This document shows, one piece after another, positions 515 through 7,919 of a stretch of 8,101 nucleotides of DNA. Position 1 is the stretch's first letter, and every line of letters starts with the position of its first letter. The translations under genes were made by a program, and so were the position numbers. Under the pieces are notes generated by a model. It did no database searches and was not told the DNA's origin. It worked only from the letters and a program-made list of their open reading frames with translations. Source of the DNA: Candidatus Mcinerneyibacteriota bacterium (GTDB lineage Bacteria > AUK180 > JAQVHJ01); the NCBI GenBank assembly GCA_030630935.1, contig DAOVMD010000124.1:1-8101 (forward strand), given 5' to 3'.

Positions 515-3500
515 ATGGAGTATATGAAAAATTTAATCCCGAAATATATTTTAAAGAATTTGAAGAAAGGTAAATTCAGAGGGAAGTTCAATGGAGGAGT
601 TATCTTCATTGATATTATTGGATTTACCCGGATGACAGAGAAGTTAATGAAATCCGGTAAAGAAGGAGCAGAGATTCTTTCCGGAATTATTAATGATATT
701 TTTACACCGATCATTGACATAATTTATTCTCATAATGGTTTCATCTCAACTTATTCCGGGGATGCATTCACTGCAATATTTGAAGATAAGAATTCATTGA
801 ATACAATTTTAGCTGCAGCATCAATCAAGCAGGTATTCAAGAGTTTCGTGGTCCGGAAAACAAGGTTCGGTACCTTCAATCTTTCAGGAAAGATAGGTAT
901 TTCATACGGTTCAATTGACTGGGGAATTATCGGAGATAAACAGAATAGAGTTTATTTCTTTAGAGGAGAAGTAATTAAACAAGCTGTTGAAGCCCAGGAA
1001 CTATGTAAAGCTAATCAAATTATTTTTCATAATAATGTCCAAAACAAGATATCTAAAAGTTCGATAACTTTTCAAAAGAAGACAACCGACTTCCATATTT
1101 TGAAGTCAGTAAAAGGAATAAAACGTATAACTCAGAAGAAAAAGGTGATTAAAGTTTCAAGCAAATTATTAAACGAATTTTTTCAAATTGATTCACTTCC
1201 GTCCAAAATAACCGGTGAATTCCGTGAAGTTGTATCGGTCTTCGTATCATTTGAAGAGATTAAAAGGTTTGATAAATTAGAGAGATTTTTAAAATGGATT
1301 TTAAATCAAATTCAAATTTTCGGGGGCTACTTCAGTTCAATCGAATTTGCAGAGAAGGGTCCGCATATGTTCATTGTTTTTGGTGCCCCAACTTCACACG
1401 AGAACGATCTGGTCAGGGCATTGAATTTTATCCATTCAATTATATCCAGGAAGGATTTAAATATTAAGGCAGGCATAACAATTGGAACTGCATTTGCAGG
1501 TTTTATCGGCAGTAAACTCAGAGAGACTTATACAGTTCTGGGTGACATTGTCAATCTCTCTGCCAGAATAATGACTGCATCCGATTGGGGTGAGATTTGG
1601 GTCCCTGAAATAATTACCAGGAAGATCAAGGATATATATGAAATTGAATTGATAGGAAAGAAGTCATTTAAAGGTAAGAAGAAAAAAACTAAAATCTTTA
1701 AAATATTATCACCTACTTATACATCGAGTGACTTAATTTATAAGAATGAAATCGTTGGTAGAGAGGATGAGTTAAATAAACTTATTAAGTTTTCAAAACC
1801 AATATTCTCCGGCAAATCCCCGGGGATTATTTATATTTATGGTGACACCGGGATAGGTAAATCCAGACTTATTGCCGAGTTTGTAATTAAGAATAAACAC
1901 ACCTGTACTATTTTCCACTTGAAATCTGATGAGATTCTGAGAAAGAGTTTTAATCCATTTACAAATTTATTCAGGGAATATTTTAATCAAGTTGAAGAGA
2001 CTACTGATAAGAAGAGAAAAAAGAGATTTGATAAGGAGTTTAATAATTTAATAAAATCCCTCACTGAACTTTCAGATAAACCATATTCAATTATCAATGA
2101 ATTATTCCGAATAAAATCATTTTTAGGCGCATTATCAGGAGTTTTGTGGGAAAACACTCTATTTTCTCAACTTGAGCCTAAAGACCAATTTCAAAATTTG
2201 CTTTATGGAGTAAAGACATTTTTTAAAGCACAGAGTCTATTGCGCCCTGTAATAATTTATCTCGATGACCTTCAATGGCTTGACCCGGATTCCAAAACAG
2301 CTTTTAAGACTCTCTCGATAAATATTGAAGATTTCCCGATTATGTTAGTTGCTTCAAGCCGGTTTAATGATGACGGTTCAAAACCAATCCTGAACCTTGA
2401 CACTAACTTTCCGGTTGACCGAATCGCATTGGAAGCACTTAAGAGCAGCGCTTTAATAAAGCTAATTAATCAAATTCTCCAGAAGCCGGTTAATACAAAA
2501 TTACTGAATTTTATTATAAAGAAAACCCAATCTAATCCATTTTATATTGAACAGATATGCCTTTATCTTAAAGAGAAGAATGTAATAAGAATTTCAAAGG
2601 GAAAATATATCCTTACGAAAGACGAGATTGATATTCCAAATAAAATAAATACAATTCTAATTTCCAGAATAGACAGATTATCGATAAGATTAAAGGATAT
2701 TATAAAATCCGCTTGTATTCTTGGAATGGAATTCGAAGTAAATATATTGTCCGAGATGTTAAAAGGAGAAAAGATTGAACCTGATCTGATAAGAGGTGAA
2801 AATGAAAGAGTTTGGTTTGCGTTCTCAGAATTAAAATATATCTTCCGTCATTCACTGTTAAAAGATGCAATATATAATATGCAATTAAAATCCAGGTTAA
2901 GGCAATTACATAAATTAGCCGCGGAATCTTTACGGAAACTGTTTAACGATAAGCCGGAAAGGTGTATAGATATCGGAACCCATTATGAAAGGGCTGAGCT
3001 CATTAAAGAAGCTAAGGAGTTTTTATTAAAAGCTGCGGAATATTCAAATAACCATTATAAAAATACAGAAGCACTAACTATATATAATAAATTATTAACT
3101 TTTTCATTAGATACCGAATTAAAAATTGATATTCTCCTTCTAAAGGGGGAAGTTTTATATACAATTGGAAAATGGAAGGAAACAGAAGATACTTTAAATA
3201 AAAGTTTAAAATTATCCCGAAAAATTAATAATCATTTTTATATTTCAAAGAATAAAATATTATTAGGGAGTTTATATAATAATCAGGGAAAATACGCGAA
3301 GGCAAAGAAACATTTATTTTCAGGGTTAGAGTATTTTAAGAATTCGCCAGGTAAGGACTTGTTAGATATCCATCAAGAGCTTGGACTTTTATATTATCGG
3401 CAAAGAGACTTTGAAAAAACTGATGAATTTTATTCAAAGGGTTTAAGATTGGCTAAAAAGACAAAGTTAATTACATCTATTGGAACATTCTATTCAGGGT

Positions 3501-4453
3501 TAGGATTATTAAAATGGAAATCAGGTGATTTTAAAAATGCAATTTCTTATTTTAAAAAATCATTAAGAATTGGCAGAAAGTTGAGCGATAAAAAAAGCGA
3601 GAGTGTTAGTTATACTAACATTGGAAATATTTACCTGGAACGGTGTGAATATGAAAAGGCAAAGTATTATTACTCTCTTGGGTTGAAATTAGCTGAGGAG
3701 ATTGGAGACATGTCTTTGACTTCCGCAATCTCCAGTAATATTGGAGCAGTATTCTTTTATCAAAGCGATCACCTCAGTGCAATTCAATACTTTGAAATTA
3801 ACCTGGAAATATATAAAGAACTCGGTGATATTAGGATGATTGGAAAAACTTTGGGTAATCTTGGAAGTATATATGGTGTCTTAGGTGAGTATGAAAAGGC
3901 ACTGGAATTTTATTTTGAAGGTTTAAAAATTGCCGAAAGAATAAATGTTCAGGAAAGTATTGCAGTAACTTATGGAAATATTGGAGAAGCATATAAATTA
4001 TTAGGGAAAACTAAAAAAGCAGAAGAATATTTTATTAAAGCAATTTCGTTAGTAAAGAAATTGAATATTCCGATATCTCTTATTAATTCAATGAACCAGC
4101 TAAGTGAATTATATTTCACATTAAAAAAATATAAGAAAGCAAAAGTTGTATTTAAAGAGATAATTAAGATTTCAAAGAAACAAAAAATTGAGATTAAAGA
4201 TATTCACCAGAGAGTCACACAAATTCTTGTTCTCAACTATGATTCTCAAAAAAAGACCGAGAAGGGCTTACAGGGATTACTTAATCATTATGATAAACCA
4301 AAGGATAAGGTATTGATTTTATATGAACTTTATTTATTGAGAAGGGATGAAAAGTATAGAGATTCGATTAAGGAAATGTTAAAATTAATTCCAGAGAATA
4401 TATTTAATAAAGAGCTTATTCAAATTCGTAAGGATATCCTTAGTGAGTCGTAG
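515..4453 (+). CDS. Soluble adenylyl cyclase-like protein: tandem class III cyclase domains, STAND/AAA NTPase, TPR repeats
   Basis: Predicted to make cAMP in the cytoplasm; there is no signal peptide or membrane segment. Numbering is from ATG 515 (1312 aa). Cyclase domain 1 (about 28-175) has both metal-binding aspartates, D33 in F-I-D-I-I-G-F-T and D83 in S-G-D-A-F, but lacks the transition-state Asn/Arg (G-E-V-I-K-Q-A-V-E). Cyclase domain 2 (about 236-400) is the reverse: no metal aspartates, but K281 (E-K-G-P), T340 (Y-T-V-L-G-D) and N347/R351 (V-N-L-S-A-R). The two halves should form one composite site, as in mammalian sAC. The Lys/Thr pair is typical of class IIIb cyclases. The NTPase begins at I-V-G-R-E, with Walker A G-D-T-G-I-G-K-S at 443-450, Walker B L-D-D-L-Q-W-L-D near 583, and F-R-H-S-L near 777. 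About ten to eleven TPRs fill roughly 815-1220. The start is uncertain: TTG 509, ATG 515 and ATG 524 are in frame and none has a good Shine-Dalgarno. ATG 515 was chosen; all three keep the domains intact. Confidence 0.93.
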   Translation: MEYMKNLIPKYILKNLKKGKFRGKFNGGVIFIDIIGFTRMTEKLMKSGKEGAEILSGIINDIFTPIIDIIYSHNGFISTYSGDAFTAIFEDKNSLNTILAAASIKQVFKSFVVRKTRFGTFNLSGKIGISYGSIDWGIIGDKQNRVYFFRGEVIKQAVEAQELCKANQIIFHNNVQNKISKSSITFQKKTTDFHILKSVKGIKRITQKKKVIKVSSKLLNEFFQIDSLPSKITGEFREVVSVFVSFEEIKRFDKLERFLKWILNQIQIFGGYFSSIEFAEKGPHMFIVFGAPTSHENDLVRALNFIHSIISRKDLNIKAGITIGTAFAGFIGSKLRETYTVLGDIVNLSARIMTASDWGEIWVPEIITRKIKDIYEIELIGKKSFKGKKKKTKIFKILSPTYTSSDLIYKNEIVGREDELNKLIKFSKPIFSGKSPGIIYIYGDTGIGKSRLIAEFVIKNKHTCTIFHLKSDEILRKSFNPFTNLFREYFNQVEETTDKKRKKRFDKEFNNLIKSLTELSDKPYSIINELFRIKSFLGALSGVLWENTLFSQLEPKDQFQNLLYGVKTFFKAQSLLRPVIIYLDDLQWLDPDSKTAFKTLSINIEDFPIMLVASSRFNDDGSKPILNLDTNFPVDRIALEALKSSALIKLINQILQKPVNTKLLNFIIKKTQSNPFYIEQICLYLKEKNVIRISKGKYILTKDEIDIPNKINTILISRIDRLSIRLKDIIKSACILGMEFEVNILSEMLKGEKIEPDLIRGENERVWFAFSELKYIFRHSLLKDAIYNMQLKSRLRQLHKLAAESLRKLFNDKPERCIDIGTHYERAELIKEAKEFLLKAAEYSNNHYKNTEALTIYNKLLTFSLDTELKIDILLLKGEVLYTIGKWKETEDTLNKSLKLSRKINNHFYISKNKILLGSLYNNQGKYAKAKKHLFSGLEYFKNSPGKDLLDIHQELGLLYYRQRDFEKTDEFYSKGLRLAKKTKLITSIGTFYSGLGLLKWKSGDFKNAISYFKKSLRIGRKLSDKKSESVSYTNIGNIYLERCEYEKAKYYYSLGLKLAEEIGDMSLTSAISSNIGAVFFYQSDHLSAIQYFEINLEIYKELGDIRMIGKTLGNLGSIYGVLGEYEKALEFYFEGLKIAERINVQESIAVTYGNIGEAYKLLGKTKKAEEYFIKAISLVKKLNIPISLINSMNQLSELYFTLKKYKKAKVVFKEIIKISKKQKIEIKDIHQRVTQILVLNYDSQKKTEKGLQGLLNHYDKPKDKVLILYELYLLRRDEKYRDSIKEMLKLIPENIFNKELIQIRKDILSES

Positions 4454-4525: not shown

Positions 4526-5884
4526 ATGGAGAAGTACGTGGATCCCATAATAATAATTATATTAATTCTGGTTTCGATTCTTGTAATTTTGCAGGTGATT
4601 AGTTTCTTTACAAAGAAAGATAAGCTCCCTGTTCAGGAATTATTAAGGAAAATTGAGGATTTGGAGAAGCTTCAAGAGACGCTTGATAAAGGTCTTAAAG
4701 ATGAGATGAGCAGGACCAGGAGTGAAGCATCGAAAAATTCAAAGGAGTTAAGGGAGGAAGTTAGGAATTCACTTAAGGATTTCAATGACTTATTAATTTC
4801 ACAGATGACTAAGATTTCCGGGATGCAGAAAGACCAGCTTGATTCCTTTTCCAAGCAATTGACTGAACTCACGAAAATAAACGAAGAGAAACTTGAGAAG
4901 ATGAGGGATACAGTTGATAATAGATTGAAAATCATTCAGGATAGGAACTCTAAGGAACTTGAGAAAATGCGTGAGATCGTGGATGAAAAATTACAATCGA
5001 CCTTGGAGAAGAGATTAGGAGAATCATTTAAACAAGTAAGTAATCAATTGGACCTGGTTGCTAAGGGTTTGGGAGAGATGCGTACTCTTGCAAGCGGAGT
5101 AGGTGATTTAAAGAATCTTTTAAGTAATATTAAAGTTCGCGGTACCTGGGGTGAAATTCAGTTAGGAGCTCTGCTGGAAGAAATCTTAACAACAGACCAA
5201 TATGAACATAATGTGAAGATAAAAAGAAATACAACTGTTGAATATGCAATTAAACTTCCAGGGAAAGAAGAGAATTCTAAACTTTACATTCCAATTGACT
5301 CTAAATTTCCCATGGAAGATTATCAAAGACTTGTTTCAGCTCTGGAAATTGGTGACCAGGAAGGTATTAAGAAATCACGGAAACAGTTAGAAGATAGGAT
5401 AAAATCAGAGGCGAAGAAGATTAAAGATAAATATATCTCTCCACCAATAACTACTAACTTTGCAATTCTATTCTTACCGATTGAGGGTTTATATTTGGAA
5501 GTTCTCCGCTTGCCAGTGAGTGACTTTATTCAAAGAGAATATAATATAATGATTACCGGTCCTACAACTCTTGCAGCACTCTTGAATAGCCTGCAGATGG
5601 GCTTCAGAACCCTGGCTATCGAGAAGAGATCCAGTGAAGTATGGAAATTATTAAGTGCAATTAAGACTGAATTTGGGAAATTCGGTGAGCTCTTAGAGAC
5701 AACTCAAAAGAAAATTCAGGTGGTGAGCAATTCAATTGAAAAAGCTGCCCAGAAATCAAGAAAGATTGAATCAAAATTAAAGAAGGTCGAGGAATTACCA
5801 AAATCCGATGCAGATAAACTTTTAGCTTTAGATGAACCTTCAGAGATTGATGATGAACCTGAAGAAACAACTGATGAAAATTAA
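4526..5884 (+). CDS. rmuC: DNA recombination protein RmuC family
   Basis: The 452-residue protein is close to the usual RmuC length. It starts with a hydrophobic membrane anchor (about residues 8-28, Ile/Leu/Val-rich). A long charged coiled coil follows (about 38-180) with repeated K-L-E-K-M-R-type heptads, then the RmuC core (about 190-430). Hallmarks visible are R-G-T-W-G-E-I-Q-L at 205-213, D-S-K-F-P-M-E-D-Y starting at D258, L-F-L-P-I-E-G-L-Y, and I-T-G-P-T-T-L-A-A-L-L at 343-353. A second coiled region and an acidic tail (P-S-E-I-D-D-E-P-E-E-T) end the protein. In E. coli, RmuC limits recombination at inverted repeats. The family has been predicted to have a PD-(D/E)xK nuclease-like fold, and D258-x-K260 would fit that motif; this is an inference. 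The ATG at 4526 sits directly behind a consensus promoter. The next gene starts 18 bp after the stop, so the two are probably co-transcribed. Confidence 0.93.
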   Translation: MEKYVDPIIIIILILVSILVILQVISFFTKKDKLPVQELLRKIEDLEKLQETLDKGLKDEMSRTRSEASKNSKELREEVRNSLKDFNDLLISQMTKISGMQKDQLDSFSKQLTELTKINEEKLEKMRDTVDNRLKIIQDRNSKELEKMREIVDEKLQSTLEKRLGESFKQVSNQLDLVAKGLGEMRTLASGVGDLKNLLSNIKVRGTWGEIQLGALLEEILTTDQYEHNVKIKRNTTVEYAIKLPGKEENSKLYIPIDSKFPMEDYQRLVSALEIGDQEGIKKSRKQLEDRIKSEAKKIKDKYISPPITTNFAILFLPIEGLYLEVLRLPVSDFIQREYNIMITGPTTLAALLNSLQMGFRTLAIEKRSSEVWKLLSAIKTEFGKFGELLETTQKKIQVVSNSIEKAAQKSRKIESKLKKVEELPKSDADKLLALDEPSEIDDEPEETTDEN

Positions 5885-5902: not shown

Positions 5903-6532
5903 ATGAAAAAAACAATTTGTATCCTTGTCTTTTTTTTCGCAGCATTAGTTTTTGTAAATGGAGATGCTTTCTTTATTGAATATGGTTTTAAAACCGGTGT
6001 TGTAAGTTCAAATATTAAGAGTGATTTTTTCTTCACTAAACGTTCAAAACTTGGTCTCGATTTTGGAGTCTTTGCTGAATCAAAAAAGTTTAAAAATTTT
6101 CAGATTGTTGCAGAATTTCATTATATTCAAAAAGGTATTATCGATGCGTATATTATTTTTGATCCTGTAACCTATGAAATTCTTGATATGACTGAGCTTA
6201 AACATAGGTTAGATTATATCTCAATCCCTGTTCTTCTAAAATTATCCAAGGAATATGATATGGTCTTACCATACCTGATGTTCGGTCCAAGATTCGATTA
6301 CTTGTTTAGTTATAGAAGCGATATTTACGGTGTATTGTTTGATGAAGTTAATAACTTCGTGCTCGGAGGTGATTTTGTGCTCGGTACTGAAATGAAGATC
6401 TCGGAGAAAATTTCCGGCATATTTGAATTACGATATAACTTCGATATAACATTGTCAGAGAATATTTTTAATTCAAAAAATGAAGCATTTCAAGTTCTCA
6501 TAGGATTCAAATTCTCAGATTTGAAAAAATAA
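5903..6532 (+). CDS. Small outer-membrane beta-barrel protein (PorT/OMP_b-brl_2-like)
   Basis: The 209-residue protein has a clear Sec signal peptide: M-K-K-T, a hydrophobic core I-C-I-L-V-F-F-F-A-A-L-V-F-V, and probable cleavage after about residue 20-22 (N-G-D-A). The mature part is a run of amphipathic strands with alternating hydrophobic and polar or aromatic residues, ending in G-F-K-F-S-D-L-K-K. The central block Y-I-S-I-P-V-L-L-K-L followed by L-P-Y-L-M-F-G-P-R matches the pattern common in PorT-type barrels ('Y-l-x-I-P-l-l-l-K ... p-Y-l-x-x-G-P'). About eight strands are expected, inserted in the outer membrane. The specific role is unknown; many relatives are uncharacterised. The AGGA at 5893-5896, 6 nt before ATG 5903, supports this start. 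The 18-bp spacing from rmuC suggests a shared transcript, without an obvious functional connection. Confidence 0.75.
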   Translation: MKKTICILVFFFAALVFVNGDAFFIEYGFKTGVVSSNIKSDFFFTKRSKLGLDFGVFAESKKFKNFQIVAEFHYIQKGIIDAYIIFDPVTYEILDMTELKHRLDYISIPVLLKLSKEYDMVLPYLMFGPRFDYLFSYRSDIYGVLFDEVNNFVLGGDFVLGTEMKISEKISGIFELRYNFDITLSENIFNSKNEAFQVLIGFKFSDLKK

Positions 6533-6791: not shown

Positions 6792-7346
6792 ATGGAAGTT
6801 AAAGGTTTAGCAATTGTAAGTACATTGGAATGGGTAAAAAAGAATCATGGTGAAGAAGCAGAGTTGGAAATCCGCAGCCAACTAAAGGAGGAGGAGCAGC
6901 AGATGCTTGCTTTTGACGGTTGTAAAGCATTATGGTATCCATTTGACTTATATAAACGGATATCTGTACTTGTTATGAATAAATATGGCGGTGGTGATGT
7001 TAAATTCCTTAGGCAAATAGGGGCATATACCGCAGAACATGATAAAACAATAATTCCCAAATTATTTTATAAAATTGGAACTCCTCAGTTTATCATTAGG
7101 TTGGGTACATGGGGTTTTAGAAGGTATTTTAGCGAGGGGAATGTAACTGTACGTGAATCTCACAAAGGAAAAGTTCTTTTCGAAATTTATAAAACTCCGA
7201 TAGTGGACCCGGTTTATTATGAAAGAATTGCAGGATGGATGACAAGAGCAATTGAGCTAAGTGGTGGAAAGAATGTTAAATCTGTAGTTGAAGTTAGAGA
7301 AGAAGGTGGTTCAGAGATAATATTATTTACTAATACCTGGGAATAA
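6792..7346 (+). CDS. Conserved 184-aa protein, first of a tandem paralogue pair (possible DUF2378/V4R-like fold)
   Basis: I cannot name this protein securely. It is soluble, with no signal peptide or membrane helix, and mixed alpha/beta in appearance. Residues shared with the downstream paralogue mark the likely core: C44-K-x-L-x-Y-P50, R74-x-I-G-x-x-T-A-E-x-D84, K90-L-F-Y-K-x-G-x-P-x-F-I-x-R-L-G-x-W107, Y143-E-R-I-x-G-W-M150 and a terminal T-W-E. The size, the mid-protein 'W/F-Y-P', the G-x-x-T-A-E block and the closing 'x-W' resemble the DUF2378 (TIGR02265) family and, more distantly, V4R/heme-NO-binding-type sensory folds. That is a memory-based resemblance only. The start is supported by AGAGG 6 nt upstream and by the matching M-x-V-K-G opening of the paralogue. 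Expression probably comes from the palindrome-overlapped promoter just upstream. Confidence 0.85.
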   Translation: MEVKGLAIVSTLEWVKKNHGEEAELEIRSQLKEEEQQMLAFDGCKALWYPFDLYKRISVLVMNKYGGGDVKFLRQIGAYTAEHDKTIIPKLFYKIGTPQFIIRLGTWGFRRYFSEGNVTVRESHKGKVLFEIYKTPIVDPVYYERIAGWMTRAIELSGGKNVKSVVEVREEGGSEIILFTNTWE

Positions 7347-7364: not shown

Positions 7365-7919
7365 ATGAAAGTTAAAGGCAAAATAATTCAAAGTACAGTT
7401 GAGTTTGTAAAAGCAAAATATGGTGAAGATGCTTTAACTGAGTTATTAAAAGAATTAACTCCCGAGGAAAGGGATTTCTTCCAATTTGGTATCTGTAAAG
7501 ATTTATTCTATCCAGTCGAAACTCATATAAAATTAACTGATTTGGTAGTGAATAAATTAGCCGAAGGTGATATTAATATTTGCCGGGAAATTGGTGAATT
7601 TACTGCTGAACGAGATAGAAAGAATATTTTAAAATTATTTTATAAATTAGGACCACCACATTTTATAATGAGACTTGGTAATTGGAATTGGAAAAGGTTC
7701 TATGATGAAGGCGAAGTCCAAATAATGGAATCAAGTTCCGGACATTTGATCCTTGATTTAAAAATCCCCGGGGAAGTACATAGATATGTGTATGAAAGAA
7801 TACTCGGCTGGATGAAGAATGCTCTGGTCTATGCAGGAGCAAAAAATATTCAACTCAATATGAAAGTTAATAAACTTAGAGACTTGACAATCGTTAGATT
7901 TCATGCCACTTGGGAATAA
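7365..7919 (+). CDS. Conserved 184-aa protein, second of the tandem paralogue pair
   Basis: It is exactly as long as its upstream neighbour and aligns with it end to end without a gap: 75 of 184 positions identical by hand count (about 41%). The gene therefore arose by an old tandem duplication and both copies have stayed full length. Retained blocks are C-K-x-L-x-Y-P, R-x-I-G-x-x-T-A-E-x-D, K-L-F-Y-K-x-G-x-P-x-F-I-x-R-L-G-x-W, Y-E-R-I-x-G-W-M and final T-W-E. Divergence is highest at 127-142 and in the last 30 residues. An 18-bp gap links it to the first copy, so they are probably co-transcribed; no clear Shine-Dalgarno precedes ATG 7365. A heterodimer or two related sensors are both possible. 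Function is unknown. Confidence 0.85.
   Translation: MKVKGKIIQSTVEFVKAKYGEDALTELLKELTPEERDFFQFGICKDLFYPVETHIKLTDLVVNKLAEGDINICREIGEFTAERDRKNILKLFYKLGPPHFIMRLGNWNWKRFYDEGEVQIMESSSGHLILDLKIPGEVHRYVYERILGWMKNALVYAGAKNIQLNMKVNKLRDLTIVRFHATWE

Follow-up and report, generated by a model that had tools for sequence, protein, structure and literature searches.

A Bacterial Member of the Soluble Adenylyl Cyclase Family With a Predicted Composite Catalytic Site in Candidatus Mcinerneyibacteriota

Gene Organization and Domain Architecture

The window, that is, the whole 8,101-nucleotide stretch of Candidatus Mcinerneyibacteriota DNA that was analysed, carries on its forward strand a long gene (515–4453) for a class III nucleotidyl cyclase similar to soluble adenylyl cyclase (sAC). 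The reading frame is open throughout 509/515–4453, and the product comprises 1312 aa counted from ATG515, the start to which all residue numbers given here refer. An alternative start, ATG524, appears equally plausible, since several paralogues begin with MKNLIP, as the product would if translated from ATG524.

In the Pfam analysis, the protein matched Guanylate_cyc in two stretches and the NTPase family AAA_16 in one, besides numerous TPRs. The first cyclase homology domain, C1 (approximately residues 21–189; 575–1081, forward strand), contains D33, D83 and the PPi-site lysine K126, with T79 and V158 at the bicarbonate positions. The second, C2 (approximately residues 233–398; 1211–1708, forward strand), contains T340, N347 and R351, with S275 at the base-lysine position, and has an elongated beta2-beta3 hairpin (residues 272–289) with K281 in its EKG loop. 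Next comes a P-loop NTPase of the STAND/AAA_16 type (Pfam match to residues 413–601; 1751–2317, forward strand), with Walker A (GDTGIGKS, residues 443–450) and Walker B (VIIYLDDLQW, residues 579–588) motifs typical in style of STAND NTPases. The clearest repeats of the TPR array occupy approximately residues 955–1229 (3377–4201, forward strand); among paralogues this part is less conserved (24% identity) than C1, C2 and the NTPase (about 36% each). The Pfam matches and Walker motifs agree with the order C1-C2-NTPase-TPR proposed in the sequence-only reading that preceded this analysis.

The neighbours of the cyclase gene encode an RmuC family protein (4526–5884) and an outer-membrane beta-barrel protein (5903–6532), both downstream and with no evident link to cAMP, and two small proteins. 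The latter are a tandem pair of mutually similar 184-aa proteins (6792–7346 and 7365–7919). The first has a weak match to TIGR02265 (E 0.0057) and the second, which has no solved relative, to the haem-NO-binding HNOB family (E 0.0085), both below the cut-off.

Residues of the Catalytic Site

Alignment with human sAC places D33, D83, K126, T340, N347 and R351 of the window protein on sAC D47, D99, K144, T405, N412 and R416, respectively, so that all six are retained; Thr405 of sAC takes part in base recognition. Both metal-binding aspartates thus lie in domain 1, as had been claimed, and the Lys and Glu reported at the C1 Asn/Arg positions were found as K155 and E159. In C2 the first metal aspartate is gone, the position of sAC D47 being taken by S245. 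Together, K155 and E159 in C1 and S245 in C2 indicate that a second site is dead, as in sAC, which has a single competent catalytic site (PMC4506562); the roles of most of the mapped sAC residues are tabulated in PMC12867704. An arrangement of the homodimer type, with the metal aspartate pair and the Asn/Arg pair in one domain, was not found in the window protein.

The same asymmetry extends through the family. Among 50 bacterial members, the window protein counted, the metal aspartates are invariant, the C2 Asn and the C2 Arg are each kept in 49, and the full composite residue set is present in 48, while a second site would be possible in none. The earlier suggestion that the degeneracies of the two domains are complementary and leave one composite site is thereby strengthened.

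For domain 2, the loss of the first metal aspartate and the retention of T340, N347 and R351 were confirmed, but K281, listed with them in the sequence-only reading, is not the adenine-recognising lysine. A gap-free alignment across the beta2-beta3 hairpin puts K281, located in the EKG turn, on sAC K340 of the FDKG loop, and puts the base-recognising Lys334 of sAC on Ser275. Lys334 is thus not matched in the window protein, although its partner, Thr340, is present. Lysine occupies this position in 25 of the 50 bacterial proteins; neither the window protein nor its close paralogue on contig C180 has it there. With half of the bacterial relatives lacking it, Lys334 is not a defining residue of the wider family.

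Ser at the base-lysine position casts doubt on activity or on specificity for adenine. Among the paralogues, of which there are at least ten, the window protein could be a dead or nearly dead one whose C1-C2 has only a structural or regulatory part to play within a STAND protein; the close paralogue C180 likewise has Ser at the base-lysine position and, in addition, its transition-state Arg is replaced by Lys. We consider this unlikely, since the window protein retains every residue for metal and PPi binding as well as the Asn and the Arg, and the class III cyclases Rv1900c and Rv0386 are active despite non-canonical base residues.

The replacement of the lysine by Ser275 also means that the substrate preference may be relaxed or altered. 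That the enzyme makes cGMP, cCMP or cUMP instead of cAMP, as a Pycsar-like defence cyclase might, is very improbable. The base-recognition pair is indeed Ser/Thr instead of Lys/Thr or Lys/Asp, and weak matches to PADLOC PycC models were obtained (best 1.9e-9), but these fall far below the sAC match and are expected of any class III domain, the guanylyl Glu/Cys pair is absent, and the adjoining genes include no recognisable Pycsar effector. Identification as a Pycsar protein was rejected on the weakness of the matches and the lack of an evident effector nearby.

Relationship to Human sAC

The sequence comparison with human sAC covered the C1-C2 region. In a search against all solved structures, this region matched human sAC (ADCY10) best (E 7e-22), followed by Pseudomonas CyaB (6e-11) and AC9 (1e-10). 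A profile built from ten paralogues aligned with sAC in one colinear stretch (positions 19–395, E 7e-54), the next chain scoring 2e-28. The likeness to sAC over both domains is therefore far beyond chance, and the homology proposed from the sequence alone is upheld.

Human sAC (structures 4CLF, 4OYA and 4CM2) and the window protein both carry C1 and C2 in a single chain, and their composite sites agree in the metal-binding residues and at the Asn, Arg, Thr and PPi-site positions. In both, moreover, the C2 hairpin is elongated and bears a D/E-K-G motif, and the cyclase domains are followed by a P-loop STAND domain, which in sAC is part of the full-length protein (PMC12802110). The hairpin comprises 17–19 residues in the C2 domains of sAC and the bacterial proteins (18 in sAC itself and in 44 of 51 overall), whereas every C1 examined has the short form, as do typical single-domain cyclases, judged by reading their sequences. 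Human sAC differs in being regulated by calcium and bicarbonate and in having K95, R176 and Lys334 where the window protein has T79, V158 and S275.

In the phylogenetic tree, human C1 falls within the bacterial C1 domains (support 100/99) and human C2 within the bacterial C2 domains (99/97), while single-domain cyclases are separate (99/93). The sequence-only reading had recommended a phylogenetic comparison with ADCY10. A topology with human C1 and C2 as sisters, corresponding to a separate duplication in the human lineage, was rejected by the AU test (p 0.011), and placement of human C1 with single-domain cyclases was barely rejected (p 0.047). The C1/C1 and C2/C2 grouping and the shared longer C2 hairpin point to one ancient tandem duplication common to sAC and the bacterial proteins, so the claimed relevance to the origin of sAC stands. 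The least probable of the alternatives, an independent tandem of two bacterial cyclase domains that became sAC-like by convergence, could draw on the long branches and on the failure of the AU test to reject a grouping of human C2 and the single-domain cyclases (p 0.154), but it conflicts with this grouping, the common hairpin, the rejected human duplication and the P-loop domain that follows the cyclase domains in both proteins. The C1 domain of the window protein lies outside the subclade nearest to sAC in the tree; the paralogues on contigs C399 and C380 are among those closer in C1.

Comparison With Other Cyclases

The homodimeric Pseudomonas CyaB (3r5g), a cyanobacterial cyclase (2w01) and Spirulina CyaC (1wc0) belong to the same domain family and have the same metal and Asn/Arg motifs, but all of these motifs are in one domain, the hairpin is short, and the proteins fall outside the C1 and C2 clades. 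Elsewhere in the organism's genome, single-domain cyclase-NTPase proteins (on contigs C465, C62 and C93) contain a related NTPase (25–27% identity, E 1e-23 to 1e-29) but only one cyclase domain, compared with two in the window protein. In the one on contig C465 (locus L037), the cyclase-NTPase gene (4837–8580) is directly followed by a gene for a cNMP-binding protein (8682–8942), a possible cyclase-effector pair. The cyclase and NTPase stretch of the window protein also matches the TOMM system kinase/cyclase fusion (TIGR03903, E 1e-32); identity with this fusion was rejected, as the cut-off of 705.75 bits is far above the score obtained (112.8), and Pfam showed no kinase domain.

Enzymes of Chloroflexus aurantiacus, reportedly described by Kobayashi, Buck and Levin in 2004, are reported to combine a pair of catalytic domains with an extended C-terminus resembling that of sAC. 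The two-domain bacterial layout is alike in these and the window protein, as far as the description goes. Bacterial sAC with a P-loop domain is attributed in the literature to Roelofs and Van Haastert (2002) as well as to Kobayashi, Buck and Levin (2004). The two-domain bacterial sAC type has thus been known since about 2004, and the window protein is an added member of it with altered residues. The novelty suggested in the sequence-only reading is not sustained: besides the orthologues described in 2002–2004, the type occurs in 42 of 386 genomes and at least ten times in the organism's own genome.

Bicarbonate Site

The bicarbonate-binding residues K95 and R176 of sAC align with T79 and V158 of the window protein, and Arg176 is missing in all 63 bacterial sequences examined. 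With the equivalents of both residues lost, control by bicarbonate through the sAC pocket is not expected, and bicarbonate regulation of the mammalian type is unlikely. This does not exclude kinship with sAC, since K95 together with R176 defines mammalian sAC only and most non-mammalian animal sACs lack one or both; two such animal sACs that were tested were pH-responsive instead (PMC12867704). The Chloroflexus sAC, which a review describes as activated by bicarbonate (Kobayashi, Buck and Levin, 2004), differs in this respect from the window protein, which lacks the mammalian bicarbonate residues.

Distribution and Paralogues

The genome, whose assembly is 80% complete, encodes at least ten two-domain proteins of the sAC type, and such proteins were found in all six other genomes of the same class that were searched. 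Matches at E 1e-40 or better were obtained in the 42 of 386 sampled genomes mentioned above; among the matches listed, most cover both domains within open frames about 1,150–1,500 aa long, and many families are represented. A search of viral contigs for relatives found none, a plasmid search yielded only C2-like matches, in Caballeronia, and a search of genome contigs with the single protein yielded only two matches, to the TPRs, in source genomes that have no full two-domain match.

Class III cyclase domains are very dense in this genome, with 27 matches in 3.2 Mb; a comparable density was seen in close relatives and in genome G036 of another group. Two relatives are candidate pseudo-cyclases with Ser at the base-lysine position: L036, on contig C180, has Lys for R416, and L102, in G036, has Ile for N412.

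Proposed Mechanism

The combined observations are best explained by a bacterial sAC-family cyclase with one composite site formed within the chain, gated by the STAND/TPR region and likely producing cAMP, a reading to which we assign a probability of about 0.75. C1 and C2 would pair within the chain and close over one NTP to form a single catalytic site. Both metal-binding aspartates and the lysine that binds PPi would come from C1, and the Thr and the Asn/Arg pair from C2; the pseudo-symmetric counterpart of this site would be dead. The homology, the order of the domains, the pattern of residues, the common hairpin and the phylogeny are demonstrated, whereas catalysis, product, gating and the pairing of C1 with C2 in space are inferred. 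The spatial pairing of the two domains rests on homology, because an AlphaFold model of C1-C2 from the single sequence, without an alignment, reached a pLDDT of only 37 (pTM 0.31).

The STAND NTPase and the TPR region most likely act as a ligand-gated switch on the cyclase, in which the TPRs would form the variable, ligand-sensing part. The lower identity of the TPRs among paralogues is in keeping with sensors that vary around a conserved switch; as evidence this is weak, since TPRs drift fast in general. The product, most probably cAMP, would be read by cellular cNMP-binding proteins; six cNMP-binding matches in the genome are possible readers.

Implications for the Origin of sAC

Absence of Arg176 from all 63 bacterial sequences suggests that the mammalian bicarbonate switch based on this residue was a later addition, a provisional conclusion given the reported activation of the Chloroflexus sAC by bicarbonate. 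More speculatively, and with a low likelihood in our estimation, these bacteria may possess a lineage-specific array of at least ten sAC-type STAND cyclases per genome that differ in their TPR sensors and base-recognition residues, are ligand-gated and do not depend on bicarbonate for signalling, some of which, including the window protein, may make a product other than cAMP. If so, the array family would preserve the bicarbonate-free ancestral condition that gave rise to eukaryotic sAC. The wide occurrence of two-domain bacterial homologues, together with the placement of human C1 and C2 inside the corresponding bacterial clades, makes it possible to test whether the sAC pseudoheterodimer originated in bacteria.
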